From positions 42,376 to 106,375 of the IMG/VR virus record IMGVR_UViG_3300023170_000011: DNA of 64,000 bases; one strand, written 5' to 3'. The stretch is from a virus. The first letter of the stretch is position 1, and the number at the start of each line of letters is the position of its first letter. The position numbers were made by a program, and so were the translations under genes. The notes below the pieces were generated by a model. It made no database searches and had not been told where the DNA came from. It saw only the letters and a list, made by a program, of their open reading frames with translations. Below, piece by piece: positions 2,653 to 18,717 of this stretch.

Positions 2653-3444
2653 GTGGGCGCAGTTTTAGATTTTAACAGATTTGTTTTAAATGAGGATAAG
2701 ATTGGTTCTTTTTATAACGATGAACTAAATCCAAAGTTCTGGGACAAATACAAAAACAAGAATGGTGAAACCCAATGGGTCTTTGATAGGCTAGTAAGAA
2801 AAAAGCTGCTTAAGATAGCCGAAGACTTCTATGAAAAATATAGTGATCTATTGGGAGACCTACCTATCGAGGATATACAACTCACTGGATCACTAGCTAA
2901 TTTTAACTATACAGATAAGTCAGATCTTGATGTTCACGTGCTGGTTGACTTTAATAAGGTAAAGTCAAAACCAGAGATGGTAAAAGCAGCAGTTGATGGT
3001 ATTAGGTTTGTTTGGAATCTAAGACATGATGTTGTTATTAGAAACCATGACGTTGAGCTTTATCTCCAGAATATACACGAGCCACATACAGCTTCTGGCC
3101 TTTATTCCCTGCTTAATGATAAGTGGATTAGAAAACCAAAGTTTGATCCCCCGGAGGTAGACGAGCAAGATGTAAGAAAGAAGTTTGATGGATTAGCATC
3201 CGAGATTAATCAAATGGAATCAAAGCTTGTTATTTCTGCATCACTTCCCAAAGATGCAAAGGAGATGTATAAAAGACTTCTTAGGCTGAAGGAGAAGATA
3301 CAGAAAATGAGAAAAGACGGACTTTCAAAGGACGGAGAATTCTCGATAGGTAACCTCGCCTTTAAAATGCTAAGAAACGAGGGATATATAAGTAAGCTCA
3401 TAGATTTAATTTCAAAAGCTTACGCTAGAATTTATTCAGAGTAA
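2653..3444 (+). CDS. Nucleotidyltransferase-fold protein with capsid-targeting-like leader
   Basis: This 263-residue protein has the polymerase-beta-type nucleotidyltransferase signature: GS at residues 79-80, then SDLDVHVLVD with Asp91 and Asp93, and a third acidic residue in DVELYL (about Glu135). Such enzymes transfer a nucleotide to RNA, protein or a small molecule; the target is unknown. The C-terminal third is helical and charged. The N-terminus reads VLDFNRFVLNED, matching the leader pattern of neighbouring head proteins and containing L-N-E at 12-14, a fit to the T4 prohead protease rule. I infer that it may be packaged and trimmed. The start is GTG at 2653: the frame is closed by a TAA at 2629 and no ATG follows for most of the protein. 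Confidence 0.78.
   Translation: MGAVLDFNRFVLNEDKIGSFYNDELNPKFWDKYKNKNGETQWVFDRLVRKKLLKIAEDFYEKYSDLLGDLPIEDIQLTGSLANFNYTDKSDLDVHVLVDFNKVKSKPEMVKAAVDGIRFVWNLRHDVVIRNHDVELYLQNIHEPHTASGLYSLLNDKWIRKPKFDPPEVDEQDVRKKFDGLASEINQMESKLVISASLPKDAKEMYKRLLRLKEKIQKMRKDGLSKDGEFSIGNLAFKMLRNEGYISKLIDLISKAYARIYSE
3382..3393 (+). promoter_or_regulatory. Possible late promoter inside the nucleotidyltransferase gene
   Basis: GGATATATAAGT matches the motif at 10 of 12 positions and lies 81 bases before the next start. It is within coding sequence and farther from the start than the intergenic copies, so it may be chance. Confidence 0.25.
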
Positions 3445-3462
3445 AAACTTTATTAGAATAGC

Positions 3463-6162
3463 ATGATACTAGTATTTAGAAAGGGCCTTGAATATAATGG
3501 GAGCATGAACGGCCTCCCAGAAAACCAAGACGAGAACATTTTCCCAATCATGTCGGTTCCTCTTGATTTAGAGGGCGAAGAAACTGACCTTAATGATTTT
3601 CAATGGTGGGCATATTCTGACAAGTGGAATGAGTGGCTAAAAGATAACCCAAGAGAATGGAAAGCTGAATCTCATGACGTGAGGTTTGATAAGGCTGAGC
3701 AAATTTTAGAAGGTATAGTAACTGCTAAAAATCCTGTTACCGAATACGTTTCCCACCAGGCTAAGAGTTTATGGAAAAACGGTGAGGTTTCTTCCTTTTC
3801 TGATTATGTAAAAATGTTAGAAGCAGAAAGCACATCTGGATCTAGAGATGCTGCTAAGAAGTTTATTAAACTCGGGTATGCTTTAGAAAAACTTTCAAAA
3901 GAAGGAAAGCTTAAAGACGTCTTAAAGATGGAAGATCTCGAAGATGATAAGGAATATGCGGTTGTTGTCGATCCAATGACCGAGAGCGGTGACCCAGTTC
4001 AAGAGGCAAGACAGGCTTTGAGAATAAAGAAAATTGGGGATTCTGCCGGTATCATTATAGCTGAGGTTGATTACAGCATCCCATTGGGTGAAGTAGAGGA
4101 CACTAAGGATTTCATGGACAAGGTCGCAGAATTTGCTAAAGATGTAGCAATTGGAGGTGCAGGTCTTGCGGCACTTTATGGTGTAGCTCAAGTAGCTGGG
4201 TCTCTGTTCTTAGGATGGCAACTTTTAAAAGGAGCACGTGGTATTTACCGTACGCTCGGAAGGGCTAGAAGAATTCATAGCGCTGTTGCCGGTGCAAGAA
4301 CTGCAGGAGCACCTGCTTGGAACACGGTTAGATCTTTTGCTACAAGAGCTTTTACAAGAAGAGCAGGGGCACAAGCAGTTGCAAATGCTGCTAGAATTAC
4401 CTTACCTTCCGGTGCATTTGTTGAGGGCGGATTAGCTTACTCTACAAGAGCAACTGGAAATGTTCTTTTAAAAGGTGCAGCAGAAAAATCCGTTAAGTCA
4501 GCAGCACAAAGACTGGTAGCTCAAGGCGGAGCAAGAGCGGCAACAGCAGTAGCTGGTAGAGGAGCTGTAGCTGCTGGTGCAAGCTCAGCTGTAGCTGCTG
4601 AAGCTTCTAATCCAGTCGGATGGATTTTGCTAGCAGCTCAGGCAGTCGGTTCTGGAATTAATCAACTATGGAATTGGTATAGTGATAAACAAGCACCTAG
4701 GTACGGTGAAGTTGAGGACTTTGCATATGGAAGTTTTAATCCTAAAAATATTCCTGTAGGAAAGGCAATAACCGTTTGCTGGACTAGCGACGGTGGTGCA
4801 GGATGGGGTGAATATATCCTGGATATCTTAACTATGTCTAAGGATGATACTAGAACAACTATGGAATTGGTCAAACTTGGTGAGTTTGATGATAGGTCAG
4901 TTTTTGTAATGCTTCAAGTAAACTCAGAAATGTTTGAAAAGGCTATGAAGGATAACGACCTTATACTACTGTCTTTTGCTAACAATGATAAATTTGAAAG
5001 AGGAACATTTGATAATGATGATCTGGAATTCCAAACTATAGTTATTCCTGATATTACTGAACTTACAATTGGTACATCCTTTGTTGGATACTCAACATGG
5101 ACCGAAATGAAAGAGGCTTATAAAGAGAGCCCTGATAGCCCAATTTACGTACCAAGCGGAGCAAGAAAGGATTATCAATTCCATTACACAGACAAGGACG
5201 GAAACGATGTAAATGTAACTGGAACCCTTGTAAATGAAAATGAGATAAGTGACACAGTCCTACAGGATTTAGTTCCTGGTGCAGCTGGTGCTGTTGAGGA
5301 ATCTGCTAGTCCCGGTCTAGATTATTCGCACCTGGTAAATGAAAGCAAGGTATTATCATTCAACGACTTCTCAAATAGAGCTAATCCTATAATGGAAGAA
5401 GACGAAAACTCTCCAGAAGAAGATGGGAATACAGAAAATGCTGAGAGTACAGAATCCACTGAATCCACAGAAGGGAATACTTACGAGGAAGATTTGCTAA
5501 CCTCTCTTTCTGCTGCATCTCCACTCGAGACAGAATATAGTCAAATACCAGTATTAGCATATAGAGTTAATAGAATAAGTTTTGTCGACCCAACTGTTAA
5601 TGAAGATGTTGATCAGTTTAACTACTTTATAATCGGCGAGCAAAGTATGGATCCTAAACCAAATCAGCCAATCCTGGTTGAATCCGCTTCGGAGGATGCT
5701 ATTGAAGAACCTAGATTTGGATTGAAAACATACGTACCTCCAGTAGAGGATGATGAAAAAAAGGATGATAAGGAAGATGAGATTGATGACCCTGAAGTAA
5801 TTGATATCGAAGACGTCGATGAACCATCATCTAAAATGGTAAGAACACAAAGAGGCGATGTTCAAATAAAAAGCAAATCAGGATCCCTAACTATTAAAGA
5901 TAGAGAAATGGAAGGTGGCATTAACATCTTTGATGAATTTGCAAACTCTAGCTTGAAGAAAAAACTTAATATCGATGATTGGAAAAACATAACTAGCGTA
6001 AAGGTTAGGTATGATAATGAGGGAGAACCTAAAAAGGTAATTTTGAAAAACAGGTTTGCAAAAGTTGGTGATAGGAGAAGGGTTTTACAGAAAGGGGAGC
6101 AAGGATTTGAATCTGCTTTAAAATTTGCAGAGTCTGTAGAAGATGGTATATCTTTCTCCTGA
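3463..6162 (+). CDS. Large head-cluster protein with hydrophobic Ala/Gly-rich centre
   Basis: I do not recognise a family for this 899-residue protein. Residues 1-225 are polar and helical. Residues 227-256 (GGAGLAALYG, then SLFLGW) look like a membrane hairpin, followed by an Arg/Ala-rich stretch to about 380 and a second hydrophobic segment (PVGWILLAAQAVG, about 385-400). Residues 410-600 look globular. A linker contains V-N-E (625-627) followed by VLSFNDF, the leader-like motif of its neighbours, so the C-terminal part may be released by the prohead protease. A very acidic stretch lies at about 754-790. It sits between the nucleotidyltransferase and the protease. An ejected or membrane-inserting virion protein is one reading; a portal is not supported. 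Met15 (3505) is an alternative start. Confidence 0.7.
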   Translation: MILVFRKGLEYNGSMNGLPENQDENIFPIMSVPLDLEGEETDLNDFQWWAYSDKWNEWLKDNPREWKAESHDVRFDKAEQILEGIVTAKNPVTEYVSHQAKSLWKNGEVSSFSDYVKMLEAESTSGSRDAAKKFIKLGYALEKLSKEGKLKDVLKMEDLEDDKEYAVVVDPMTESGDPVQEARQALRIKKIGDSAGIIIAEVDYSIPLGEVEDTKDFMDKVAEFAKDVAIGGAGLAALYGVAQVAGSLFLGWQLLKGARGIYRTLGRARRIHSAVAGARTAGAPAWNTVRSFATRAFTRRAGAQAVANAARITLPSGAFVEGGLAYSTRATGNVLLKGAAEKSVKSAAQRLVAQGGARAATAVAGRGAVAAGASSAVAAEASNPVGWILLAAQAVGSGINQLWNWYSDKQAPRYGEVEDFAYGSFNPKNIPVGKAITVCWTSDGGAGWGEYILDILTMSKDDTRTTMELVKLGEFDDRSVFVMLQVNSEMFEKAMKDNDLILLSFANNDKFERGTFDNDDLEFQTIVIPDITELTIGTSFVGYSTWTEMKEAYKESPDSPIYVPSGARKDYQFHYTDKDGNDVNVTGTLVNENEISDTVLQDLVPGAAGAVEESASPGLDYSHLVNESKVLSFNDFSNRANPIMEEDENSPEEDGNTENAESTESTESTEGNTYEEDLLTSLSAASPLETEYSQIPVLAYRVNRISFVDPTVNEDVDQFNYFIIGEQSMDPKPNQPILVESASEDAIEEPRFGLKTYVPPVEDDEKKDDKEDEIDDPEVIDIEDVDEPSSKMVRTQRGDVQIKSKSGSLTIKDREMEGGINIFDEFANSSLKKKLNIDDWKNITSVKVRYDNEGEPKKVILKNRFAKVGDRRRVLQKGEQGFESALKFAESVEDGISFS

Positions 6163-6195
6163 TAAAAAAACGTCAAATTTTCTGAAAAAGAAAAT

Positions 6196-6207
6196 GGATA
6201 TATAAAG
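6196..6207 (+). promoter_or_regulatory. Late-promoter-like motif GGATATATAAAG
   Basis: Exact copy of the motif at 2622, placed in the 68-base gap 35 bases before the protease-scaffold start. No Shine-Dalgarno is obvious before that start. Confidence 0.7.
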
Positions 6208-6230
6208 TTAAATAATAGCAAAGTCAAGAA

Positions 6231-8246
6231 ATGAACGAGTCTTTATTGAATGGGAACCTTCTCTTCATCCTTGAAAAGCAAGAAAATAATCTTGCAGTTT
6301 CAAAGGACGGTAACTCGGATGGTGGTGGTTATATACTCAAAGGTATTGCTGCTCAGTTTGGGAAAGAGAATAATAACAATAGAATATACGAGGAAGGTGA
6401 ATACCTACCTCACCTTGAGTACCTAAAGGATAAGATAGGACAAAAGAGATTAGTTGGTGAATTAGATCACCCTGAAAAATTCGACGTATCTCTTAAAAAC
6501 ATTTCTCACGTTGTAGAAGATCTTGTTTATGACAAGGACGGAAGAGTATTAAACATTAAGGTTCGTTTGCTTGACACACCAGCTGGACAAATTGCTAAGA
6601 AATTAGTTGATGCTGGTATACCTCTTTCTATTTCTTCTAGAGCAGCTGGAAATGTAGGTCCAGATAAGAAGGTACAGATCAAAAAGATCTTTACTTATGA
6701 TTTGGTTGCAGATCCAGGTTTCCAAGACGCTCAACTCGAGAGAGTTTATGAAAGCGCTGGATTTGATGCTTTTGAATTTGAAGAAAGATCAAAAAAATCC
6801 GTTGTTAACAACTTAGAGTGTGTAAATGAGTCACTAGGTATAGAAAATGAATCTGGGGTAAAGATATATAAAGTTGAAAATAGCGAAGAATTCGAAAAAA
6901 TCCTTAATCAAGAAAAAAATAAATCCAACATTATGGAGGCCAACAAAGAATATGTTACTGCTGACGAGCTTAATAAGTATTCTATCTTTTTGAAAAATAA
7001 GATGGATGAGCTGGAAACGCAGATTTCTGAAATGAAACAACAAGAAGCTCAAGTTTCCGAGAGCGAAAGTGAATCTGTAGATTGCAAAGCTTTGGAGGAA
7101 AGAGTTGCTAAGCTAGAAAAGTACTCCGAGTATCTTGCTGAAAATCTAGAAAGTGCTATTAAGTACGGTGAGTATTTGTCAGAAAACCTAGATAGCAGCA
7201 TTACGTATTCTAAGTACCTTGCTGAGAATCTAGACAAGACTATCTCTTATTCTAAGTATTTGGCCGAAAATGTTGATAAGGGTATTTCTTACACTGAATA
7301 TGTAGCTGAGAATGTTGATAAGACTATCGACTATTCTAAGTATTTGGCAGAAAAACTAGATGATGGTATTCAATATACAGAATACGTGGCTGAAAATCTT
7401 GATAAGAATATCGCTTACTCTGAATACTTAGCAGAAAATGTTGATAAGAACATTGCTTACTCTGAGTATTTGGCAGAGAATCTAGATAAGGGTATTTCTT
7501 ACTCTGAATATCTAGCAGAAAACTTAGATAAGGGAATAGCTTACTCTGAGTACATTGCAGAAAAACTAGATCAAGGAATAAACTACACTGAGTACCTAGC
7601 AGAAAACCTAAATAAAGGTATTGCTTACTCAGATTATTTAGCTGAAAAGCTAAATGGAAATATAGCTAACACTGAAGCTATACACGAAAGCGTTAAAGCA
7701 GAAAACTCGCCAACACTTAACGAAAGTGCTAGGGAAAATGCTGAAAGCGCATCTAAAACTGAATTGGTTGAATCAGGATTTGCTGGAGATTATGAAAATC
7801 TCGGAAGCAAGATTGATTCTCTAATTGAATCAGTCAAAACACAAAAGACTGAGGAAAATATAAATGAGGCACAAACGAAAGTTGAGCCGACTGCTCAAAC
7901 ACAAAAAGCAGATGAGGCAATCAACGAAGCCGAAGAAGAAACATTGGCAGGATCATCAGGTCACAAATTTATTGATGAAATGCCAGAAGATTACTCTCCG
8001 ATTTGGGAGTCACTAAATGAAAGTCAAAAGCAATCAGTAATTGCACAATCAGCTTTCTATAACTTAGAGACTGCTTATCAGATCAAGAACTTCTGGTCAA
8101 CTCGTCAGCTTGGTGCTAAACCAGTAGGACTTCAGAAACTTCAAGAGAGCCAAGAAACACCAGAGCCTAAGACGGCTACTAACCCTCAGGGGTATTCAAA
8201 CGATTACCTTAATTGGGTCGCTAAGTCGCTCGAAGGTAAGTTTTAA
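6231..8246 (+). CDS. Prohead protease fused to scaffold/core protein (gp21-gp22-like)
   Basis: Residues 35-175 match the T4 gp21-type serine protease: YILKGIAAQFGKEN, GELDHP with the catalytic His80, PLSISSRAAG with the catalytic Ser at 135 or 136, and VADPGF as the likely third site. In T4 the protease and the scaffold (gp22) are separate genes; here the protease runs into a 450-residue coiled, charged C-terminal part with thirteen 14-residue repeats at 297-478. That part contains [ILV]-N-E at 198, 496, 544, 564 and 595, as expected of a scaffold digested during head maturation. It directly precedes the capsid gene, the T4 order. A promoter-like motif at 6862 and an ATG at 6933 (residue 235) could give a separate scaffold. 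The protease call is firm; the scaffold call rests on position and composition. Confidence 0.9.
   Translation: MNESLLNGNLLFILEKQENNLAVSKDGNSDGGGYILKGIAAQFGKENNNNRIYEEGEYLPHLEYLKDKIGQKRLVGELDHPEKFDVSLKNISHVVEDLVYDKDGRVLNIKVRLLDTPAGQIAKKLVDAGIPLSISSRAAGNVGPDKKVQIKKIFTYDLVADPGFQDAQLERVYESAGFDAFEFEERSKKSVVNNLECVNESLGIENESGVKIYKVENSEEFEKILNQEKNKSNIMEANKEYVTADELNKYSIFLKNKMDELETQISEMKQQEAQVSESESESVDCKALEERVAKLEKYSEYLAENLESAIKYGEYLSENLDSSITYSKYLAENLDKTISYSKYLAENVDKGISYTEYVAENVDKTIDYSKYLAEKLDDGIQYTEYVAENLDKNIAYSEYLAENVDKNIAYSEYLAENLDKGISYSEYLAENLDKGIAYSEYIAEKLDQGINYTEYLAENLNKGIAYSDYLAEKLNGNIANTEAIHESVKAENSPTLNESARENAESASKTELVESGFAGDYENLGSKIDSLIESVKTQKTEENINEAQTKVEPTAQTQKADEAINEAEEETLAGSSGHKFIDEMPEDYSPIWESLNESQKQSVIAQSAFYNLETAYQIKNFWSTRQLGAKPVGLQKLQESQETPEPKTATNPQGYSNDYLNWVAKSLEGKF
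6862..6873 (+). promoter_or_regulatory. Internal late-promoter-like motif before possible scaffold start
   Basis: AGATATATAAAG lies inside the protease-scaffold gene, 71 bases before the in-frame ATG at 6933, which follows an A-rich tract like other starts here. The bases downstream (GTTGAAAATAGCGAAG) also resemble those after the copy at 6196 (GTTAAATAATAGCAAAG). Confidence 0.4.
7119..7664 (+). repeat. Thirteen in-frame 42-bp repeats (14 residues each)
   Basis: Residues 297-478 of the protease-scaffold consist of thirteen tandem 14-residue units close to AYSEYLAENLDKGI. The period equals two heptads, compatible with a long helical rod. DNA copies differ at many third positions, so the protein pattern is kept by selection and the array is not recent. 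Confidence 0.95.
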
Positions 8247-8272: not shown

Positions 8273-9994
8273 ATGAAACTAATCAACGAAGCAGAAATCT
8301 TCGAAACCTGGTCTCCTATCATCGAGCAGAAGGCCGGTATTCAAGATGCTGAAAAAAAAGGATGGTTGAGCAAGTACTGCCACTACCATTCATTAAACGA
8401 GTCTGCTGGTGCATATCAGTCACTAGCAACTGTAAACGGTATGGGTGCCGTACAACCACCCGCATACCCAGGTGGGTATAACTCCACTGGTTCTGCAGTA
8501 GGTACGCAAGCAAATTCTGCTTTCTATAACTCTGCTAACCAAGGTTCAGGTGATAAGTTTCCTTCACTTCTTCCATTGGCAATTCAGGTTGCTGCGAAGA
8601 CTGTTGGATTCGATATCGTTCCTGTAATTCCTATGTCAGGTCCTACTGGCGTACTTTCTTACCTAGATTACGTATACTCAGGTGGTAAAATCAGTCCTGC
8701 ATCTGCTGGCGCAACATCTGCTGAAGCTCTTGCAACTGCACCTTCTATGATCAAGGTAGAATTGACAACCCCTGCAGCAGGTTATCCTGCTAACTTTGCA
8801 GTAGGTACTACTTACTACATCACTAACGCTTCTTCAGCTGGTGCATATATCACTACTGAGTTTGTTGGTCTATCTAGAATCGATGCATTCCCAATCTTTA
8901 GAGTTATGGGATTAACTGCTGGTGAGACTATCTCTGCAGTTCTTGATGGTAACGCAGCTAAAATTGGTACTGCAGTAGATGGAAACCAAGCTGGTACTAC
9001 AACTGCGAGAGCAGAATTGGTTAAAGCTCTTGAGGATCACATCCAAGGATTCTCTGGTGCTGGTTTCAACAACGACCAAGACTGGCAAGGACCATTCGTA
9101 GATGGTACTAAGACTTACAACCCAATGCTAAGAGGTGTTGGTGAGAGCACTTACTACCAATCAATGGGTCTATCAACGTTCACTAAGTTCGTCGAAGCTG
9201 ATACTTTCCAAGTAGCTGCTTCAGTAACTACTGAGCAGATCCAAGACCTTAACAAGCAATTCGGTATCGACGTAATTTCTATGATCGAGAACGCATTGGT
9301 TAATGAGGTATCTCAAGCTATTAACAAGCACATCCTATCTAGAGCATTCGCTCTTGGTTGGTCTAACCACGACGAATTCTTGACTACAGAAGGTCAGAAC
9401 TTGAACCTAAACCTCGTTATCGGTGGTACTGCTGGTTCTTACACTATTCCTTCTTACATAGGTAAGTCTGACTCTGGTATCTCTATCGCTTCTGTTGCAG
9501 GTCCTGCTTCAGGAACTTACGAGAACTTGTCAACTCTACAGAGAAGACTATTCTCTAGAATTCTAGCATCTGCTAACGTGGTTGCTAACAGAGGAAGAAG
9601 AGGTCCTGCTAACTTCATCGTTACTAACGCTAACGTTGCAAGTGCATTGCAAGACATCTCTCAGTTCACTTTCGCACCTTTCTCTAACACTCTAACTCAG
9701 AACAACGGTACACTTTACCCAGTAGGTTCTCTTGCTGGTATGACCGTATATGTTGATCAGAACATGAAGTTCGGTGATAACAGAGTATTAGTAGGTAGAA
9801 AAGGTGGTGACGACGAACCAGGACTTAAGTTCATGCCTTACATGATGGCTGAGTCTATCCAAACAATCTCTGAAGGTACTATGTCACCTAAGATTGCGGT
9901 TAAGTCTCGTTACGCACTAGTAGAAGCTGGTTTCCACCCAGAAACTATGTACTTCTGTTTCCACGTGAACGTTCCTGCTGGAGGTCTATCCTAA
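8273..9994 (+). CDS. Major capsid protein, T4 gp23-like
   Basis: The 573-residue protein forms the head lattice. Its N-terminus (IFETWSPIIEQ) matches the gp23 leader helix, and KFPSLLPLAIQVAAKTVGFDIV followed by PMSGPTGVLSYLDYVY matches the gp23 start of the HK97-type fold; NFIVTNANVASALQD, TVYVDQNMKFGDNRVLVG and the AVKSRYALVEAGFHPE segment match the C-terminal half. T4 gp23 has 521 residues and loses a 65-residue leader. Here L-N-E at 41-43 followed by Ser44 is the likely cleavage point, leaving about 530 residues. Codons are strongly biased to C-ending AAC, TAC, ATC and TTC, unlike the neighbours, as expected of the most abundant product. It follows the scaffold by 26 bases and is closed by a terminator. 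Confidence 0.95.
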   Translation: MKLINEAEIFETWSPIIEQKAGIQDAEKKGWLSKYCHYHSLNESAGAYQSLATVNGMGAVQPPAYPGGYNSTGSAVGTQANSAFYNSANQGSGDKFPSLLPLAIQVAAKTVGFDIVPVIPMSGPTGVLSYLDYVYSGGKISPASAGATSAEALATAPSMIKVELTTPAAGYPANFAVGTTYYITNASSAGAYITTEFVGLSRIDAFPIFRVMGLTAGETISAVLDGNAAKIGTAVDGNQAGTTTARAELVKALEDHIQGFSGAGFNNDQDWQGPFVDGTKTYNPMLRGVGESTYYQSMGLSTFTKFVEADTFQVAASVTTEQIQDLNKQFGIDVISMIENALVNEVSQAINKHILSRAFALGWSNHDEFLTTEGQNLNLNLVIGGTAGSYTIPSYIGKSDSGISIASVAGPASGTYENLSTLQRRLFSRILASANVVANRGRRGPANFIVTNANVASALQDISQFTFAPFSNTLTQNNGTLYPVGSLAGMTVYVDQNMKFGDNRVLVGRKGGDDEPGLKFMPYMMAESIQTISEGTMSPKIAVKSRYALVEAGFHPETMYFCFHVNVPAGGLS

Positions 9995-10089: not shown

Positions 10090-11190
10090 ATGAGGAAAAT
10101 AAGCTCACATAAACAGTTCCTTATTGAAAGGGATCTTTCGGTAGAAGTAGATCAGGTGGTGTTAGCTGAAATGCTTCTGGACTATTATGGATTAAACGAG
10201 GGAAAGGCATTGGATACTCTTAAAAATTCGATTTCTAAAGCTTTATTTGGTCCTTTCTCCAGATTGTCTGTTATAGACACAATCAGGAAAGGAAATCTCG
10301 ATATACAAAAGGAGATCATTAGAAAACAGTATGATGTGGAAGATGAAATCCTAGATCTGGAGGATAGGATAGAGGAGCTGAGAAAGAGCGGATCCTCTAG
10401 GAGCGATATTTCACGAATTCAAACACAGATTGAAAGAAAGAGAAAGGAATATAGATCTTTTGTTAAAATGAAGAAGGAGCAGACCAATAAAGGGATGAAA
10501 CTTCTTGAGAAAACAATAGGTAAAAATCCAAGAAGGAGAGAATATTACGAGGCTGGATTCTTAGACGATAAATACGAACTTGCAAAGTTTGAATTTGAAC
10601 TTGCACAACAGAAATCTGCTGAAGCTGGAAATCTAAAAGATCTAAAGAAGGATCTTGAAGACGCTGCTAAAAAAGCAGAATCCTTTGTAGTAAAGACAAA
10701 AAGCTCTGCACAAACTAAGGGGAAAATAAAAGACTCCGAACTTGAGGATGTATCTGCTTTGAGAAAGAGAATCTCAGCAAATGATATGGGCGTTATAATA
10801 TCTCTAAGAGAAAAGTCTAGGGATAGAATAAAGGAGCTTAAATCACAAATGTCCAAGATTCTTAGCGATATGAAGGGATTTATTTCAAAATCTCCTACAT
10901 ACGAGGAGGTTAAAGCTTCTGGAAAAATAACAAAGGGTATAAACGATCTCGAATCCAAAGCTAATGAGATGGATTCATTAGATAACCTTTCTAAGGTTTA
11001 CTCTGATGTTATTTCTTCAAAGGGTAAATCTATTTCCAATGAATCATCATTGACTAGCTTATTTGGTAAGATTAACTCTGCTATTTCCGATGGAAATGAT
11101 GCAGGATCTGGTGTTACTAAAGATGTTGTGGATATGAAATCGGACATCACATTGAAAAAGATTGGAAATCTAATAAAAAAATTGTCCTAA
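10090..11190 (+). CDS. Coiled-coil head-cluster protein (366 aa), likely internal
   Basis: No family is recognised. The protein is highly charged, Lys/Glu-rich and almost entirely helical, with long coiled-coil stretches (for example EDEILDLEDRIEELRK at about 86-101, and 150-210). It begins ISSHKQFLIE, the leader-like pattern of this cluster, and has L-N-E-G at 35-38, a candidate site for the prohead protease. It is the first gene after the capsid terminator and is followed after 2 bases by a similar helical protein, so the pair is probably expressed together. A role as an internal core or DNA-associated head protein is inferred from position and the leader. A minor scaffold component is the alternative. 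Confidence 0.75.
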   Translation: MRKISSHKQFLIERDLSVEVDQVVLAEMLLDYYGLNEGKALDTLKNSISKALFGPFSRLSVIDTIRKGNLDIQKEIIRKQYDVEDEILDLEDRIEELRKSGSSRSDISRIQTQIERKRKEYRSFVKMKKEQTNKGMKLLEKTIGKNPRRREYYEAGFLDDKYELAKFEFELAQQKSAEAGNLKDLKKDLEDAAKKAESFVVKTKSSAQTKGKIKDSELEDVSALRKRISANDMGVIISLREKSRDRIKELKSQMSKILSDMKGFISKSPTYEEVKASGKITKGINDLESKANEMDSLDNLSKVYSDVISSKGKSISNESSLTSLFGKINSAISDGNDAGSGVTKDVVDMKSDITLKKIGNLIKKLS

Positions 11191-11192: not shown

Positions 11193-12086
11193 ATGCTTTT
11201 AAAATTTAAAGAGTGGGAATCACAAAACATAAATGAAGGGGATGTTAGCCTTGATAAGATTATGAATTGGCTTAGCTCTAATTTTGGTGGTACAATATCT
11301 AAAATAGATTCTTTGCTTTCCAAAATAAGTTCCATAGAAACCCAATATTCTAAAGACTGGAATGATATCCAGACTGATATAGATGCACTGGAGGTAAAGA
11401 AAGCTCAAACAAAGAGCGATCCTGCTGAAGCTAAGAAGCTGGAAAGAATGATTGATAGGAATCAGAAATTGCTTACAGCTTTAAACAAGAAAAGAAAAGC
11501 GGACATAGCTAAGGTTGATGATAAAGTAGAAAAATTAACTAAAGGTAAAACAAGACTTGTTTCTTATTGGAATTTAAAGAAGGCTGAATTGGAAGCAGAT
11601 CTCGCCGAGAGTATGTACAAGATGGCTAAAGATCTTACTGACGAATCTGTTGCTGATGAATTGTACGACAAATACAAAGAGGCAGCACTTCAAGCGAAAT
11701 CTAAAGATGAGAAGTTTAGGGAAAGGTTTGGTAAGTTGGAATTAGCTAAGCCCTCCACTCTTAAATCAGATACTGAGTCTAAGGCTATATCAGGTGCTAA
11801 CTTTTCAATGGATCCTATCTTTTCAATGAACGCTCCCCAATTTACTAAATTCGTTCAGGATTTGGAAAAGAGTCAGGTAAGCGCATTAATCAAAGCCATG
11901 CAATCCGAAAGAAATGAAAGATATGCTACTTTAGATACCGAAAGAGATAGACTTGAAGCTCAAGCTGAAAAGAAAGGTTTGTCTCGGGATAGTGTGAAGA
12001 GGGATCTTTCAGATCTACGTGAAACTCTAATGAGACAAATTAGGGATTTGAGAACTAAAATAACTATTGCTAGAAGATATGCTTAA
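11193..12086 (+). CDS. Coiled-coil head-cluster protein (297 aa), likely internal
   Basis: Unrecognised, charged and helical, with coiled-coil heptads over most of its length (residues 45-180 and 225-290). The N-terminus LLKFKEWESQNINEG carries the leader-like pattern and I-N-E-G at 13-16, one of the clearest candidate prohead-protease sites here. Composition and size resemble the preceding 366-residue protein, and both have an ELA/DLA-rich central helix, but I see no convincing alignment that makes them paralogues. Its stop overlaps the next gene's ATG by 8 bases. Function is inferred only from location downstream of the capsid gene. Confidence 0.75.
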   Translation: MLLKFKEWESQNINEGDVSLDKIMNWLSSNFGGTISKIDSLLSKISSIETQYSKDWNDIQTDIDALEVKKAQTKSDPAEAKKLERMIDRNQKLLTALNKKRKADIAKVDDKVEKLTKGKTRLVSYWNLKKAELEADLAESMYKMAKDLTDESVADELYDKYKEAALQAKSKDEKFRERFGKLELAKPSTLKSDTESKAISGANFSMDPIFSMNAPQFTKFVQDLEKSQVSALIKAMQSERNERYATLDTERDRLEAQAEKKGLSRDSVKRDLSDLRETLMRQIRDLRTKITIARRYA

Positions 12087-12348
12087 TCGTATTAAAAAAC
12101 TAAATGAGTTTCCCTTATTGGAAGGTGTAAACGAGGATTTGGTAAAAGCAAAGGCTGATGTGAATGAAAAGCAAGCAGAAATTGCCGAAGAAATAGCAAA
12201 GCAGAAAGAAACCACAGATCTTAAGGAAAAAGCTGCTAGTATAAGAAACCAGGCTAGACTTGCTGGTCAGATGCCTTCTTTATTGAATGCGCTGGCAAAT
12301 GCAATGGATGCAAAGGCTGATTCTGGTGACACAACAAATATTTATTAA
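12079..12348 (+). CDS. Small helical head-cluster protein (89 aa)
   Basis: Begins at the ATG at 12079, overlapping the previous stop by 8 bases, with AGAAGA just upstream as a weak ribosome site; an in-frame TTG at 12067 is less likely. The sequence starts IKKLNEF and has GVNED at 16-20, so both the leader-like pattern and a V-N-E site are present. The rest is an Ala/Lys/Glu-rich helix (residues 20-60) with a Gly/Asn-rich end. A small internal head protein, by analogy to the T4 internal proteins, is the best guess. Confidence 0.65.
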   Translation: MLNRIKKLNEFPLLEGVNEDLVKAKADVNEKQAEIAEEIAKQKETTDLKEKAASIRNQARLAGQMPSLLNALANAMDAKADSGDTTNIY

Positions 12349-12351
12349 AAG

Positions 12352-14745
12352 ATGGCAAACAATTATCTTAGGAATAACCCAGTAGCGAATCAATTGTCGA
12401 TTGACACATTTAGATTGTTTGAAAATCAGGATGTTGACAAAGCTCTTGAAATAGCAGTCGATACTCTTTTAGGGGTCTTCAAAAAAATCACTTTTGATCT
12501 AGCTTCGGATAGGAATAGATCTTTTGAATCTTTTTCTAAAAAGCTTATGGGAGTGGGCGAGGCATCTTCTTTTAAATCACTGATTGCTAACATAAAAGAC
12601 GTTTGTGGGGATATTGAGCTTGCTGATCCTATTTTGGCACCACTTAAAAAGATGTATCTTGATTCTATCGATACGTTGGGTGATGCTATCAAAAGAATGA
12701 TAGAGTTAGATCCATCACTAGAAGCAAAAGCTATTGAATATTTCAAAAAAGCTAGCAAAAGATTGTTGGAAACAATTAAAAGAGTTGCTGACCAATACCA
12801 GGAAAGGATAAACGAATCCCAAGCTATTGGTGTTCCTGGCAGAATGGAGAGGCTTAAGAGAATCTTGGTAAATCACATTATGGATTCAAAGGGAAAGGAT
12901 GCAAAAGCTGGTTATGGTAGGGATTGGCACAGATTGTTTACTACTTTGGAACAGAAACTTTCTTCCATAAATGCCGATAAAGCAACATTCTCAGATGGTG
13001 ATAGAAAAAATCTCGCAGAACTTGAAAAGAAGACTGATAGCTTAACACAAGAGTACAATCAGTACAAAGTTAGAGCGGCTGAAACCGTGATGAGCAAGAT
13101 TATCAAGGATCCTGACCTAGAGTCAAAATTTGCTGATTATATTGAGATCATGACTAATGCCTTAGATGGTGTTACGAAAGCAAATACCGAGGAGGGCCTT
13201 ATCGAGGTAAAAGTACGTGAGATCCTTGATGATAAGGAAACTAAAATGCAGGATAGGGTATTCCCACTGAAAGTTGGTGATAAGGACAATGACGGTAAGC
13301 TTAAGGGTTCTGGCTTGATTCAGACAGTCCAGAAGGCACTTATTGATGCCTTTATACCGATTAAAAATCTTTTGGATCCTAGAGGTGGTGCTAATGGTAA
13401 ATTTGAAACCCCAACTAGTGTTGCTGTAAAGTCTATACAAGCTTCACTTGGAAATAAAGATGTGAATGGTACTTTGGATAAGCCTTTATTGGATGTTATT
13501 TTAAAGCTGGATCAGGTGTCTGGAGAAAATAAAGATGCAATAAAAGAAGCTATTTCAAAGCTTAGGGTTTCTTATTCATCAATGAGTGAGTCTACAAGCG
13601 CATTAAGTGTTACCGAATTTATGAGGCTGATGGAAGCTATGACTTATATAGATCCTAATGAAATAGAGGATAAAATCAAAATGTACAGTGAGGAAATAAC
13701 TGAAGATGATGATTCTGTTGCACAACCAACTACCTCTGACTACACCATGGCTGAAAGACTGGCTAAGATGTTAAGGACTAAGAATTACAACAAAAACGCG
13801 GAGACAGAAGATTTTCTTAAGGAGGATGGTACTTTAAAGGGATCTTGTCCCCAAGATTTTATTGACGGCTGGACAAAAGCAATATCTGGTGATAAGTCTG
13901 TTTCCTTCTTTTTTATAGAGGATGAGAATGGAGGTTCACTTTATCCTACTAAGAGATTATCTTGTAATGTGAATAAGCCATGTAACTGGAAAAGGTATAA
14001 ATCTATTGCTGGAGATGAAACAGACGACGTTCACAATTTTGGAAAATGGTACACGACATACTGGAAAAATTTTGGTGGCGTTGGTTCTGAAATCAAGTCA
14101 AAAGTTTTGGATGATGTAATGAAGTCCAATTGTTCATTGGCTAAAGAGGAAAAACTTTCCGATGTTATAACGATCTACGAAGATCTTGAGAACTCTTTCA
14201 TGCCTCATAAGGATGAAATATCACATGGCTATCTTAGACCAAATTCAATAAAGGAGATTTCTTCTGGAATAAAGGGTATGTTAGGTAATGATGGTGTTTC
14301 TAATCTTAGTCCTGCTGAACTAAGAGCTTTATATAACTCAGTTGTCCTAATTTCTCCCCTAATCACATTTGATAGAGAAAGAGATGAATGGGTACCAGCA
14401 CTATCCTTCCTATGTAAGACACTGGATTTAACTGAAGATGAGCTATTATCTGGGATTAAGAAAAGTAGTTCCTTAGGAAAGAAAGGCAAAATGAGTTCTG
14501 AAAAAGTAGCTTATCTTGATACTAAATCCTTACAGGATGGAGGTGATAGTGAAATTTTGAAATCAACTGTTATCGGTAGCACAGAGGATCCAGAGAAGAT
14601 AAACAACATGAAATCAACACTAGATAAGGTTAAGTCTGTACTAAAGAGTCTTTCCAAACACACTAAGAGAATTAGTATAAGCGATGTTGGTGATATTACT
14701 CCTGATATTTCTGATTCTGTTGTTGTTATCTCTATGGCCAAGTAA
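12352..14745 (+). CDS. Large head-cluster protein (797 aa) with possible PG-binding-like segment
   Basis: No family is assigned. The first 300 residues are helical; QLSIDTFRLFENQD at 14-27 resembles the leader-like motif and I-N-E-S occurs at 153-156. Residues 322-388 contain NGKFETPTSVAVKSIQASLG and VNGTLDKPLLDVIL, a pattern like the peptidoglycan-binding domain type 1 (G-x-x-T-x-x-AV-x-x-Q, then V-x-G-x-L-x-x-x). Residues 450-650 are a Cys-containing globular region (GSCPQDFIDGW, CNVNKPCNWKRY) with GKWYTTYWKNFGG. It starts 3 bases after the preceding stop and ends the head block. It could be a packaged and ejected protein acting on the envelope; that is a guess. Confidence 0.7.
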   Translation: MANNYLRNNPVANQLSIDTFRLFENQDVDKALEIAVDTLLGVFKKITFDLASDRNRSFESFSKKLMGVGEASSFKSLIANIKDVCGDIELADPILAPLKKMYLDSIDTLGDAIKRMIELDPSLEAKAIEYFKKASKRLLETIKRVADQYQERINESQAIGVPGRMERLKRILVNHIMDSKGKDAKAGYGRDWHRLFTTLEQKLSSINADKATFSDGDRKNLAELEKKTDSLTQEYNQYKVRAAETVMSKIIKDPDLESKFADYIEIMTNALDGVTKANTEEGLIEVKVREILDDKETKMQDRVFPLKVGDKDNDGKLKGSGLIQTVQKALIDAFIPIKNLLDPRGGANGKFETPTSVAVKSIQASLGNKDVNGTLDKPLLDVILKLDQVSGENKDAIKEAISKLRVSYSSMSESTSALSVTEFMRLMEAMTYIDPNEIEDKIKMYSEEITEDDDSVAQPTTSDYTMAERLAKMLRTKNYNKNAETEDFLKEDGTLKGSCPQDFIDGWTKAISGDKSVSFFFIEDENGGSLYPTKRLSCNVNKPCNWKRYKSIAGDETDDVHNFGKWYTTYWKNFGGVGSEIKSKVLDDVMKSNCSLAKEEKLSDVITIYEDLENSFMPHKDEISHGYLRPNSIKEISSGIKGMLGNDGVSNLSPAELRALYNSVVLISPLITFDRERDEWVPALSFLCKTLDLTEDELLSGIKKSSSLGKKGKMSSEKVAYLDTKSLQDGGDSEILKSTVIGSTEDPEKINNMKSTLDKVKSVLKSLSKHTKRISISDVGDITPDISDSVVVISMAK

Positions 14746-14796
14746 CCTAGAAACTTATCAAACACATAACTCTATAACTCCTAAAGGTGTTTTTTA

Positions 14797-15729
14797 ATGT
14801 GTAAGGCAGTTAAGTTATATTTCTTGAGTTTTTGTAGACAAGGTCCACCCTACGATTCGGGTAAAGACCTCACTAGTAACGTGGATAATATAAAAGCTCT
14901 ACTTGGTGGTTTCTTTGACGATGTAATTATTTACTCCCCAGCTTCTCTTAAAGAGTGTGAGGGTAGCGATGGATTTTGTGAGTTCCACGATGGTGATTTT
15001 CCACTTAACGCCGGTTTGAATGCAAATGGATGCGGGGATTTTAAATCTTTCATTATAGATAAAACTCTCGGTGAGATTGATGATGGTGATATTCTGGTTT
15101 ACCATGATTGCAATTTTGCTAAATATCCACAATACTGGCAAACAGATTGGGAAAACCTACACGATATTGTAAATTTCTTACTTTCTGAAAATGGTTCGGA
15201 TTTTTTTATACCCTTTGAGCATGAGGCATTTGGCAAAAAACCTACAGTTTCTCTTCACGGAAAAAGATATACTACAAATAAAATCATAACAAATTCTACT
15301 GAGGCTGAGATTGTTTCCAGATGCTATGAGATCGCTTCCAGTAGGATGATAATAAGGAATTCTGAATCCTCTCGTGCTTTCTTTGGTGATTATAAAAGGC
15401 TGTGTAGCCAAAAGGATCTACTAACAAAATATCCAAATCCAAATCCATATCCGGAATTTACCCATAGCTGCCCAGAGCAACATGTGTTAAATTGTTTAAT
15501 TTACAAGTACATTTTAGACGGTAAGCTTGATAAGCATTTTCCTAGGTATTCATTTCCCAACGGGAGACTTTCAATCCATTCTGGAGTTGAATATAGAATA
15601 AACGAGGAACTGTCGAAATATATGAAGGTTAAGACCATAAAAGAATTTGAAAAAAGGAACAACAATGTCGGGGAAAATAAAGATATTCGAGGGACCAAGG
15701 AATTCGGGGAAGACATTTTTAGCACGTAG
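14797..15729 (+). CDS. Putative glycosyltransferase-like protein (310 aa)
   Basis: The middle of the protein, DDGDILVYHDCNFAKYP (about residue 88), resembles the strand plus D-x-D-type metal and nucleotide-sugar site of GT-A glycosyltransferases, and CPEQHVLNCLIYKY near residue 225 resembles the acceptor-side helix often seen as EQ-x-x-L-N. No membrane segment or signal is present. It opens a three-gene accessory cassette set between head proteins, with AAAGGTG nine bases before the ATG, a better ribosome site than most here, and no late-promoter motif. The last 65 bases overlap the next gene in another frame, so the final 21 residues may be an extension gained by loss of an earlier stop. Confidence 0.55.
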   Translation: MCKAVKLYFLSFCRQGPPYDSGKDLTSNVDNIKALLGGFFDDVIIYSPASLKECEGSDGFCEFHDGDFPLNAGLNANGCGDFKSFIIDKTLGEIDDGDILVYHDCNFAKYPQYWQTDWENLHDIVNFLLSENGSDFFIPFEHEAFGKKPTVSLHGKRYTTNKIITNSTEAEIVSRCYEIASSRMIIRNSESSRAFFGDYKRLCSQKDLLTKYPNPNPYPEFTHSCPEQHVLNCLIYKYILDGKLDKHFPRYSFPNGRLSIHSGVEYRINEELSKYMKVKTIKEFEKRNNNVGENKDIRGTKEFGEDIFST

Positions 15730-16213
15730 GTATTCTGAGATCCACAGTCTTCCTATTTATCAGTTTGACTTCGTTGGGTGGTTCAATAAGTTAGAATTTG
15801 ATAATGGCTCCCGAGAGACCCACTCATTTGCGCTTGGTAAGGAACTGATGCTGCTCCAGCTTTCGAGGGATAAACTACTTCCTACCTTTATACTCGATCG
15901 GGGTATAATTACTGTGCTTTCCTGGGGAATATTATCAGGAAGGATAACGGAAGAATTTGCTCTAAATCAGCTTAAAATGATTGCTGGAGAGGGTTTGCTT
16001 AAAAACTGTGAAATCTATTTCGTAACTGGAGATAATCCAGACAAGTCCCCTAGAAATAAGGACAATTGGGATTTTACTGAGGAAGACAACAAGGAACTAG
16101 AGATAGTTGAAAATTTGATAGGTTATATTCAAAATCAACCTTACAATGTTTATACCCAACGTATTTTTAATAGCTTCAGTGATAAAACGATAAACGATTT
16201 AAAACATATTTAG
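15665..16213 (+). CDS. P-loop kinase-like protein (dNMP/nucleoside kinase-like)
   Basis: A 182-residue protein with a Walker A loop EGPRNSGKT at 9-17 and a LDRGIITVLSWG segment (about 83-94) matching the D-R motif of deoxynucleoside and thymidylate kinases, where it contacts the nucleoside. A lid-like region with KSPRNKDNW follows. The substrate cannot be read from sequence. I chose the ATG at 15665, which has AAAAAAGGA upstream, over an in-frame TTG at 15647; even so the gene overlaps the putative glycosyltransferase by 65 bases. The stop TAG is followed immediately by the ATG of the asparagine synthetase, so the two are probably co-translated. Confidence 0.65.
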   Translation: MSGKIKIFEGPRNSGKTFLARRYSEIHSLPIYQFDFVGWFNKLEFDNGSRETHSFALGKELMLLQLSRDKLLPTFILDRGIITVLSWGILSGRITEEFALNQLKMIAGEGLLKNCEIYFVTGDNPDKSPRNKDNWDFTEEDNKELEIVENLIGYIQNQPYNVYTQRIFNSFSDKTINDLKHI

Positions 16214-17617
16214 ATGTGTGGAATAATAATTACGAAAACTCCAGGTGAGGATGTTTTAGACTCTATTAAACATAGGGGGATTGAGAAAACTGTGGTTGTG
16301 AAAAACGGACTCAGTATTTGTCACCACAGGCTCCCAATTCAAACATCTGATGGTGATAATTGGAATCAGCCTATAGAGGTAGCAGACGGCATTTATTTGC
16401 TGTTTAATGGTGAGATATTTAACTATGACACAGTAAGGTTTGATTCTGATATAGAATATCTAACCAACTTATTTAGAAGATACCGAGGCGGGAGTTTTGA
16501 GATGTTCTGCTCTCTTTTTATTCCTATTATACAAACTTGGGATGGATTTTGGGCAATTACAATCTATGATTCTTCAACCAACGATATAATTGCATTTACG
16601 GATCCTTTGGGTAGAAAATGTCTTTATTACAATTCACTTGGTGAAATTGCATCCGAGATTAAGCCTTTGGTTTATGAGAATTCCCAGATCGATGAATCTT
16701 TTATTAGTACTGTGAGAAAGTGGGGGTACAACACCGATGAAAGAACACCATACAGCGACATTAAAAGGATCCTACCGAACAACATTTATCACTTTAATTT
16801 AGATAAAACTCCTGAGTTTAAAAATGTTTATCAAACTTACTATAAGGGTTTTGACTACCCAATTCAAGAATTGGTTGGTAAAGATTATGATGCCCATATG
16901 GAATGGCTTTGGTCTAAAATGTTCGAGTCTGTTAGGAATAGATTGATCTCTAAAGATTATCCGATTTCACTTCTAATCTCAGGGGGGCTTGATTCTTCAA
17001 TTATTGCATCAATTCTCAATGAGCTTGGTGCTGATGTTAGGTGGTTTAGTATTGAGAATGGCGAGAAGGAGTTTGTTGACATTCTCGCTTCAAAGCTCGG
17101 TAAAGAGGTTTCCTTTTTGGACTATTCAATGGATGAATCTATGAATGAAAAAATCTACAAGAAGTGGAACGAATCACCGATAGATCTGGGTTCTGTAATA
17201 CCGCAATACCACTTATTTGATGCGGTAAAAAGATTTGGTGGATATCGTATAGTTCTTTCTGGTGATGGTGCTGATGAGCTATTTGGAGGGTATAAAAGAA
17301 TACACGAATATGATTCTCAAAAGTCAGATGTTTTTGATGAGCTTTCATACTACCACTTGCCTAGGCTTGATAAAATGTCTATGGCGCATACACTTGAGTT
17401 AAGAAGCCCATTTTTAAATCTTGATCTAGTAAGGTTTGCTTTACATCTTCCCCTTGAATGGAGAAAGGACAAAAAAATTCTTAAGGACACTTTTGCACCG
17501 TTACTCCCCGATGAGATTATTAATCGTAAGAAGGCACCACTAAAAAATCCGAAGATAAAGGAGGATAAAATTGCATATAGATATAAAGCAGTTGATCTTT
17601 TTCTAGGTAATAGATAA
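16214..17617 (+). CDS. asnB: Glutamine-hydrolysing asparagine synthetase
   Basis: The enzyme makes asparagine from aspartate, ATP and glutamine. It is 467 residues long, shorter than E. coli AsnB (about 554), mainly at the C-terminus, but key sites are intact: Cys2 of the amidotransferase (MCGI), HHRLPI, FNGEIFNY for glutamine binding, FTDPLGRKCLYY, the ATP pyrophosphate loop LLISGGLDSS, SGDGADELFGGY, and DKMSMAHTLELRSPF in the synthetase half. It starts directly after the preceding TAG. In the cassette with a putative glycosyltransferase and a kinase, it might raise the asparagine pool or amidate another carboxylate, as relatives in sugar and antibiotic pathways do. Asparagine synthesis is the default reading. 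Confidence 0.93.
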   Translation: MCGIIITKTPGEDVLDSIKHRGIEKTVVVKNGLSICHHRLPIQTSDGDNWNQPIEVADGIYLLFNGEIFNYDTVRFDSDIEYLTNLFRRYRGGSFEMFCSLFIPIIQTWDGFWAITIYDSSTNDIIAFTDPLGRKCLYYNSLGEIASEIKPLVYENSQIDESFISTVRKWGYNTDERTPYSDIKRILPNNIYHFNLDKTPEFKNVYQTYYKGFDYPIQELVGKDYDAHMEWLWSKMFESVRNRLISKDYPISLLISGGLDSSIIASILNELGADVRWFSIENGEKEFVDILASKLGKEVSFLDYSMDESMNEKIYKKWNESPIDLGSVIPQYHLFDAVKRFGGYRIVLSGDGADELFGGYKRIHEYDSQKSDVFDELSYYHLPRLDKMSMAHTLELRSPFLNLDLVRFALHLPLEWRKDKKILKDTFAPLLPDEIINRKKAPLKNPKIKEDKIAYRYKAVDLFLGNR

Positions 17618-17631
17618 ATTACTTCTTGGAG

Positions 17632-17643
17632 CGATATATAAAG
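17632..17643 (+). promoter_or_regulatory. Late-promoter-like motif CGATATATAAAG
   Basis: Lies 26 bases before the ATG at 17658, after the accessory cassette. It is flanked by the inverted repeat TTGGAG (17626-17631) and CTCCAA (17651-17656), echoing the stem around the 2622 copy. Confidence 0.65.
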
Positions 17644-17657
17644 AAAAAATCTCCAAA

Positions 17658-18338
17658 ATGGCTAATAATATTAAATCCTTTGAGGATTTTAAATCTGATA
17701 TAGCTCAGGAAGTAAACGAGAGCTGGTTCTCTGATATACTTGGGTATGCTGGAGGTGCATTTAGCGATGTTCTAAAAGGTAAAGCATCTGCTTACCTTAT
17801 GAGTTTCTTTGGTATTGGTGAGCAATCTATATTTAGTAAACTTGTACAGAACTTTGTAGAACAAATTCCAATTGCAGATTTAACCAAAATTATATTTGCT
17901 GGTAAGGCAAATTCTGCTTACCTTGCTCCAAAAATGGCTGACGCAACTATAGAATTCCTTTCTGAGAAAGGTCTAGACGGGATAGCAGAGGATCTCCATA
18001 TAGAGCCTTCTGGATGGATTTACAGGACATTATCAGAGATAATAAGCAACCAAGCAAGAAGGGAAAATTTCAGGGAATCCTTGGTTAAATTTTACTTGCA
18101 AGCATTTAATGGATTTGAAAGTCCTGATGTCGAGGAATTTAAAAGTTCTTTATCTTCCATGGATAAAAGAAGTCTGGAAAGGGGTCTAGAGGATGCTTCC
18201 AGAAGATCTGGTGCTGATTTAGATGTGGCATCTAGCGAAGCTGGAAGGGATATGGTTACTGACTTTTTATCTGGATTAGCTGGTGATGGTCAATCAATGC
18301 AATCTCTCGGATTAAGTACTGGGGGAACAATACAATAA
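17658..18338 (+). CDS. Probable virion protein with capsid-targeting-like leader (226 aa)
   Basis: Family unknown. The N-terminus NIKSFEDFKSDIAQEVNES is the clearest match in the window to the leader pattern of T4 internal head proteins, with V-N-E-S at 19-22 as a candidate cleavage site. After it comes a Gly/Ala-rich amphipathic region (ILGYAGGAFSDVLKG; YLMSFFGIG), then a helical body and a Ser/Gly-rich tail. It follows its own late-promoter-like motif by 26 bases and is 13 bases ahead of another leader-bearing protein. A packaged head protein is inferred from the leader. Confidence 0.7.
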   Translation: MANNIKSFEDFKSDIAQEVNESWFSDILGYAGGAFSDVLKGKASAYLMSFFGIGEQSIFSKLVQNFVEQIPIADLTKIIFAGKANSAYLAPKMADATIEFLSEKGLDGIAEDLHIEPSGWIYRTLSEIISNQARRENFRESLVKFYLQAFNGFESPDVEEFKSSLSSMDKRSLERGLEDASRRSGADLDVASSEAGRDMVTDFLSGLAGDGQSMQSLGLSTGGTIQ

Positions 18339-18351
18339 AAATACTAATATC

Positions 18352-18717
18352 ATGAATATAAATGACGTAGCAAAGAGAGAGGTTTTAGACTTTGATCAAT
18401 TTAAGAAAAAGGTACACGACGAAACATACAAACCATTCGCTGCTGAAAATCAAGAAGGTGGTGAAGGAAAGACTGGACTACATAGGATAAAAAGAGAGCC
18501 TGCTTACGATTGGGTTGGCTATGCTGATGCAGTATTTAGCCCAGAAAAAGCGGGAATCGAGGTTCCTGGATATAATGCTGATGGTGACAGAGAGTACAAC
18601 ATTGCAAATGCTGGTCCTTCTATAGTAAATGCCCCAAATTCTTCTATCTCTGGATTGGGAGAATCTGAAACACCAGTTAATGAATCGTTTTCAATTAAGA
18701 GGTTAGAAGATTTCTAA
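18352..18717 (+). CDS. Small probable virion protein (121 aa)
   Basis: Family unknown. The N-terminus reads EVLDFDQFKKKVHDE, the leader-like pattern, and the C-terminus reads PVNESFSIKRLEDF with V-N-E at 109-111, so both ends look like substrates or targeting elements of the head. The middle is polar with YDWVGYADAVFSPEKAG. It is transcribed with the 226-residue protein and closed by a terminator 26 bases downstream. Its small size and two end motifs suggest a minor head component. Confidence 0.65.
   Translation: MNINDVAKREVLDFDQFKKKVHDETYKPFAAENQEGGEGKTGLHRIKREPAYDWVGYADAVFSPEKAGIEVPGYNADGDREYNIANAGPSIVNAPNSSISGLGESETPVNESFSIKRLEDF

Follow-up and report, generated by a model that had tools for sequence, protein, structure and literature searches.

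We analysed a 64,000-nucleotide stretch of viral DNA (hereafter, the window), which covers positions 42376-106375 of the 106,375-base record IMGVR_UViG_3300023170_000011; the record is possibly itself a fragment. It holds the structural half of the genome of a T4-like myophage that belongs to the Lak/PAU/PTm5 lineage. By capsid protein, its closest named relatives are the Lak phages, the huge metagenomic phages LR756500 and LR756504, Tenacibaculum phages PTm5 and pT24, Flavobacterium phage MaF61, PAU and Chryseobacterium phage MA9V-2. Since the host of PAU has been reassigned to Sphingobacterium (PMC3738902), every named host belongs to the Bacteroidota. The head genes of the window encode, among others, a prohead protease joined to a scaffold, a major capsid protein and a nucleotidyltransferase. 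Their products share a short motif, [ILV]NE, and we consider it very probable that a head-maturation protease of the T4 kind cuts there. All window features located below lie on the plus strand.

The motif in the head genes

A sequence-only reading of this stretch had listed 15 such motifs as probable cleavage sites. Translation showed every position to be exact: residue 12 of the nucleotidyltransferase (LNED), 625 of an 899-aa protein (VNES), 198, 496, 544, 564 and 595 of the protease-scaffold (VNES, LNES, INEA, INEA and LNES), 4 and 41 of the capsid protein (INEA and LNES), 35 of a 366-aa protein (LNEG), 13 of a 297-aa protein (INEG), 17 of an 89-aa protein (VNED), 153 of a 797-aa protein (INES), 19 of a 226-aa protein (VNES) and 109 of a 121-aa protein (VNES). 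The residue following Glu is S, A, G or D at 15 out of 15 positions, in line with that reading. The list was selective. It omitted residues 590 and 712 of the 899-aa protein, 343 of the capsid protein (VNEV), 8 and 28 of the 89-aa protein and the scaffold start (MNES). Even with all omitted occurrences counted, the excess of the motif lies well beyond chance.

Expected counts were obtained by shuffling each protein individually (300 shuffles). In the ten head genes, with every occurrence counted, we found 20 [ILV]NE (4.4 expected) and 16 [ILV]NE[SAGD] (1.3 expected). In the remaining genes of the record (29,053 residues) the corresponding counts were 29 against 23.7 and 9 against 6.4. For [ILV]NE[SAGD] the head genes differ from the rest with a Fisher p of 4e-9, and the motif passes the enrichment test that the sequence-only reading had called for. 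One might still put the motif down to chance, or to Asn and Glu clustering through the composition of charged head proteins, which are rich in Glu; the triplet is short, and a few of the listed sites are unconserved. However, none of the 300 shuffles reached the observed [ILV]NE[SAGD] count, which refutes a chance origin for the set as a whole, and in proteins that evolve fast, the residues of the sites are much better conserved than those around them. We give this explanation next to no credence.

Conservation was examined in 80 loci with a capsid identity of 71-100%, and orthologues were aligned after removal of near-duplicates (90%). At the best sites Glu is kept in 96-100% of relatives, in proteins that are otherwise 34-54% identical. 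For the 366-aa protein, with a mean column identity of 34%, 31 of 38 relatives retain [ILVM]NE at residue 35, and all 38 have the Glu. For the 297-aa protein the NE form at residue 13 is found in 33/41 relatives (Glu 41/41), for residue 153 of the 797-aa protein the motif is found in 33/36 (Glu 36/36), and at residue 19 of the 226-aa protein Glu is invariant (33/33) and Asn is present in 24/33. An average Glu column in these four proteins is kept in 38-49% of relatives, as compared with 100% for the site Glu. Across the fast-evolving proteins the average Glu column is kept in 33-51%, so the Glu at the good sites is singled out. Site 12 of the nucleotidyltransferase keeps Glu in 25/26 relatives and Asn in 13/26 (50%). 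At residue 625 of the 899-aa protein (VNE|S, 5335-5343, followed by KVLSFNDF...IMEE) the NE form occurs in 15/38. Counting P3, P2 and P1 up to the cut and P1′ after it, the pooled profile of eleven good sites reads L 54, I 24 and V 14% at P3, N 78% at P2, E 94% at P1, and S 41, G 20 and A 17% at P1′.

Three of the sites proposed from sequence alone are unsupported. Residue 109 of the 121-aa protein (gene 18352-18717, site 18676-18684) has the motif in 4 of 28 relatives and its Glu in 41%; for site 17 of the 89-aa protein, Glu at residue 19 is found in 36%; and LNE|S at residue 496 of the scaffold (7716-7724) is weak, being present in 9/26. The INE|A at residues 4-6 of the capsid protein (8282-8290) occurs in 26/26 relatives. 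We consider it doubtful because the next residue varies (A, Q, K or S; in [SAGDN] in 35% of relatives) and because it lies inside the propeptide that cleavage at residue 41 would remove.

Other occurrences were rejected as sites. For the 899-aa protein, 21% of relatives have Glu at site 590 and 8% at site 712. The capsid VNEV at residue 343 is fully conserved but is followed by Val and sits in the folded shell domain. An INE at residue 7 of a 160-aa protein is also conserved; F or Y follows it in most cases, and we read it as part of a targeting core (IKxINEF) of the kind described below.

The protease and its predicted substrates

The gene ahead of the capsid gene (6231-8246, 671 aa) encodes, by its sequence, modelled fold and gene order, a gp21-type prohead protease (residues ~20-190) fused to a coiled-coil scaffold. 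It matches PHROG 207 (E 9e-33) and Pfam S77 (PF03420; 30.0 bits, cut-off 27). Its best PDB sequence match, though weak (E 0.028), is T4 gp21 (5JBL). An AlphaFold model of residues 1-204, built from 25 sequences, had a pLDDT of 55.5. The only significant structure matches of this model were three 5JBL chains (E 3e-7 to 5e-7, prob 1.00), with a TM score of 0.51-0.54 by query length. His80 and Ser135/Ser136 are invariant in the 25 sequences and lie within the stretch aligned to 5JBL. The order protease, scaffold and capsid (8273-9994) is that of the gp21 type.

The VNE|S at residue 198 (6822-6830) is found as [ILVM]NE in 23/24 relatives. As it ends the protease domain, self-release is its natural reading, and we predict it to be the point at which the protease is freed from the scaffold. 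Further sites are located in the scaffold: INE|A at residue 544 (7860-7868; 17/25 relatives, P1 Glu 80%), INE|A at 564 (7920-7928; 22/26) and LNE|S at 595 (8013-8021; NE in 19/26, P1 Glu 96%). In two other loci, L037 (8709-9980) and L039 (8702-9976), the scaffold is called without the protease part. Protease and scaffold may therefore be separate genes there, as in T4 and PAU.

The major capsid protein (8273-9994, 573 aa) belongs to the gp23 family (Pfam Gp23, E 6e-41). In the PDB it matched T4 gp23 alone (E 2.6e-9), and no mature capsid structure of the lineage was found there. LNE|S at residues 41-43 (8393-8401) is present in 26/26 relatives. Across the wider lineage, an [LI]xE occurs at the equivalent position or close to it, ahead of the conserved NGMG region: LYE|N in LR756500, LNE|D in Lak, IHE|N in LR756504, INE|S in PTm5, IYE|S in MaF61, ILE|S in pT24, LME|N in PAU and LNE|S in MA9V-2, although the exact homology of the site is approximate because the loop alignment is loose. 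A mature capsid protein starting at Ser44 (base 8402), as had been proposed, agrees with these eight distant relatives and is our best prediction. Additionally, the 797-aa protein is predicted to carry a long N-terminal propeptide that ends at INE|S, residues 153-155 (12808-12816; 33/36 relatives).

The system resembles that of T4, in which gp21 cuts at L/I-x-E (PMC9026906). The S77 family, the fold match to 5JBL, Glu at P1 and Leu/Ile at P3 are the same, as are the substrates, namely capsid, scaffold and internal proteins. The phage studied here differs in its strong P2 Asn, in Ser/Gly/Ala at P1′, in the common use of Val at P3, and in having protease and scaffold in one chain, whereas T4 has separate gp21 and gp22. 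The giant phage SPN3US also cuts after Glu in a three-residue motif and has many N-terminal propeptides on packaged ejection proteins (PMC10052503). Its protease gp245 is distant and recognizes A-x-E, with Ala at P3 instead of Leu/Ile/Val. The head of Sphingobacterium phage PAU (JQ362498) shares LNE sites and a capsid [LI]xE near the same place; its protease and scaffold genes are separate.

Asn at the middle position

The sequence-only reading held Asn at the middle position to be nearly fixed. This proved too strong. Asn is a marked preference of the lineage (78% of orthologous sites), whereas the fixed positions are Glu at P1 and Leu/Ile/Val at P3. Some orthologues have S, L, F, T, D or Y at P2 instead.

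When the ten head genes were taken together with a 930-aa protein encoded upstream of the window, Asn occupied P2 of [ILV]xE[SAG] 17 times against 3.6 expected; elsewhere in the record the numbers were 7 and 5.2. It was also raised in the loci of MA9V-2 (17 vs 2.9), PTm5 (8 vs 2.6), LR756504 (8 vs 3.4), MaF61 (8 vs 3.3) and PAU (10 vs 3.6; in PAU Tyr is raised as well, 13 vs 2.5). Over the whole locus it was near expectation in pT24, Lak-A2 and LR756500. The heads of T4 (1 vs 1.0), a cyanophage (0 vs 0.6), a KVP40-like phage (1 vs 1.0) and phiM19 (1 vs 0.8) showed no excess, and a small one was seen in the head regions of Stenotrophomonas phage BUCT608 (3 vs 0.6) and Deifobo (2 vs 0.7).

It could be argued that the sites simply follow the T4 rule [LI]xE and that the protease does not read P2, Asn being common there through Asn-rich linkers or copies of a founding tag. 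P2 indeed varies among nucleotidyltransferase orthologues (N 13, L 5, F 4, S 2), the capsid site has Y, H, M or L elsewhere in the lineage, and residues other than Asn are frequent at the sites that end the N-terminal tags described below (N 40, F 23 and Y 7 of 98). On the other hand, Asn in the head genes greatly exceeds composition, at unrelated sites of unrelated proteins, and its excess recurs in MA9V-2, PTm5 and LR756504 and is absent from the T4, cyanophage, KVP40-like and phiM19 heads. If the enzyme prefers one residue, independent sites should converge on it, as they do here. We regard an unread P2 as a minority option that deserves to be kept in mind. On the sequence evidence, much of the lineage prefers Asn without being bound to it, with Phe/Tyr as second choice at tag sites.

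Targeting-like tags and a proposed route into the head

In T4, the first ten residues of the internal protein IPIII direct head entry, residues 4 and 7 serving targeting and 8 and 10 processing (PMC9026906). In our alignments, the N-terminal sites of the window close a segment in which positions i, i+3 and i+6 are hydrophobic or aromatic, [ILVM]xx[FLIY]xx[FYW] (e.g., VLDFNRF-VLNE, LKFKEW-..INE, IKSFEDF-..VNE and IKKLNEF-..LxE). The sequence-only reading overlooked that capsid-targeting-like sequences terminate at these sites, and that the same tag stands on many distant genes in relatives.

Such N-termini are found in the nucleotidyltransferase (263 aa; MGAVLDFNRFVLNE, 2653-2694, with the predicted cut after its site at 12-14), the 366-aa protein (10090-10200, a core followed by LNE|G at 35-37), the 297-aa protein (MLLKFKEWESQNINE, 11193-11237) and the 226-aa protein (MANNIKSFEDFKSDIAQEVNE, 17658-17720), the last two with the predicted cut directly after the segment. 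The 89-aa protein has a targeting-like core in MLNRIKKLNEFPLLEGVNE (12079-12135) with an uncertain cut position; most of its relatives have [LIF]xE near residue 15, mostly LNE|D or LFE|G. In this phage, tag and [ILV]NE occur together at the N-termini of 5 proteins, as compared with 0.1 expected. In a model of the nucleotidyltransferase, residues 1-16 form the sole low-confidence segment; a PDB fold search with it gave weak matches only, to aminoglycoside nucleotidyltransferases (E 4e-4, TM 0.21).

The core is also seen away from N-termini. In the 899-aa family KVLSFNDF follows site 625 and precedes another [ILV]xE, and beyond residue 500 the pattern [ILVM]x.F.[DEAQ]F is present in 26 of 40 members, as compared with 0.8 among shuffled sequences. 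The 121-aa protein has an N-terminal core VLDFDQF and a C-terminal core IKRLEDF, and 22/30 members of its family have a C-terminal [IVL]xx[LFYI]xxF (IKRLEDF or similar). One core-binding motif may thus occur in internal and C-terminal forms as well.

The tag pattern was written after the head families of the window had been viewed; genes outside the head cluster of three larger relatives of the same lineage, G001 (348 kb), G002 (400 of 434 kb read) and G005 (230 kb), were not used for it. In these genomes tag plus [ILV]NE starts 20, 22 and 6 proteins, respectively, whereas shuffled N-termini gave 0.6, 0.7 and 0.3 and internal positions 0.1-0.6. The tagged genes are spread across the genome, and many lie at a distance from the head cluster. 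Pfam matches among their products include a RimK-like ATP-grasp (in all three), a GDPD phosphodiesterase, an RNase_T exonuclease, CHAP, AAA, OmpA and peptidoglycan binding, and the domains start downstream of the tag. In MA9V-2, two proteins start with MKTFTYFINEA and MKNFFSFINEA, which have the same spacing as T4 IPIII.

Several individual relatives are worth recording. A RimK-like ATP-grasp with tag and LNE is encoded in L108 (2580-4034), L147 (16321-17793) and L124 (1302-2765); this protein is a candidate injected ligase. An RNase_T exonuclease in L133 (3415-4257) has the tag MKNLSTFSQFLNES ahead of its domain. On the minus strand of L123 (7042-9936) lie three tandem paralogues with near-identical starts (MKHLQSFSLFEARKTS), the first of which weakly matches leucine-rich repeats. 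They are possibly an expanded family of packaged proteins.

PAU has a variant of the tag. The strict F/Y/W core gave no excess there (1 vs 0.5), as PAU has Leu at that position, where it doubles as P3 (LYE|A). However, 19 PAU proteins start with M-x-x-[ILVF]-x-x-[LIFM]-[YFN]-E (in simplified form M-x-x-[LI]-x-x-[LM]-[YF]-E, several then KLNEA), against 0.23 in shuffles, a count that is descriptive because this second pattern was chosen after seeing the sequences. Four of the five PAU proteins annotated as "internal capsid protein" are among the 19 (p = 6e-5). We take this overlap as support, not proof, because the record gives no grounds for the annotation.

Judged by its layout and its recurrence in unrelated proteins, the tag fits the T4 capsid-targeting type. 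Like the sequences of IPI, IPII and IPIII (PMC9026906), it is short and N-terminal, has a hydrophobic or aromatic residue at every third position and carries a protease site at its end, and IPIII residues 4, 7, 8 and 10 match its core and site. It differs in that the site often lies 5-25 residues past the core, that many more proteins are tagged in the larger relatives, and that internal and C-terminal copies are possible in this phage (899-aa and 121-aa proteins). Among PMC papers we found no description of the motif or tag of this lineage (subscription papers and preprints were outside the search).

The N-terminal core plus [ILV]xE might instead be a tag for something else, such as a phage compartment or the tail channel. 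This would suit the scattered location of the tagged genes in relatives, which include enzymes without a known virion role. We consider it improbable: the layout equals that of the sequence which targets T4 proteins to the capsid, the motif that closes the tag is also that of the capsid and scaffold sites, and an equivalent tag is carried by four PAU proteins with the annotation internal capsid protein.

Two observations concern genes upstream of the window. The 930-aa protein (27765-30557 of the record, C1; window -14610 to -11818; L003 8765-11557) contains seven [ILV]NE and 34 [ILVF]xE[SAGDN] and has a repeated MGYNLDEA-like C-terminus. Its NE sites 352, 406 and 458 are kept in most of three relatives, and it is a candidate core protein that is cut to pieces. 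Phages normally have one portal gene. Here, two tandem genes (window -10106 to -8496 and -8485 to -6890; L003 13269-14879 and 14890-16485) both match portal family PHROG 213 (E 7e-58 and 9.5e-58).

Taken as a whole, we think it highly likely that a gp21-type protease cuts head proteins at [LIV]-N-E|[SGAND], Asn being preferred and not required, and that N-terminal tags target cargo to the head. The protease would be made as one chain with the scaffold and become active once the prohead is assembled. It would free itself at VNE|S 198, cut the C-terminal part of the scaffold at several [ILV]NE|[SA] sites, remove residues 1-43 of the capsid protein and trim the inner-head proteins. In the cargo (the nucleotidyltransferase and the 226-, 297-, 366- and 89-aa proteins), the site would end the targeting sequence [ILVM]xx[FLIY]xx[FYW]. 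This sequence would bind the scaffold core, and the cut after Glu would release the cargo inside the head, to be injected later. Some points weigh against this picture. Confidence in the protease model is low (pLDDT 55.5), three listed sites (121-aa 109, 89-aa 17 and scaffold 496) are not conserved, and the triplet alone is insufficient, because the conserved VNEV 343 fits it within the folded shell domain of the capsid protein. The PAU "internal capsid protein" labels were possibly guided by N-terminal similarity.

As far as sequence can tell, heads of this lineage mature in the T4 manner, but with a preference for Asn and with targeting tags employed far more widely. We lean, with some reserve, towards a broader reading for these huge Bacteroidota phages. 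One tag, a T4-style core ended by [LI](N/F/Y)E, would serve as a sorting signal across the whole genome. Dozens of proteins would be loaded into the head by it and injected when infection starts, among them RimK-like ligases, an exonuclease, a phosphodiesterase, a CHAP peptidase and a nucleotidyltransferase. The cargo proteins of jumbo and huge phages are mostly unknown, many such phages being known from metagenomes alone. If the reading is true, packaged and probably injected proteins could be read from sequence alone, which would give a testable list of candidates, and the mature N-termini of head proteins would be predictable. A prohead protease with a P2 preference unlike that of T4 would also be useful for understanding how such an enzyme reads such short sites.

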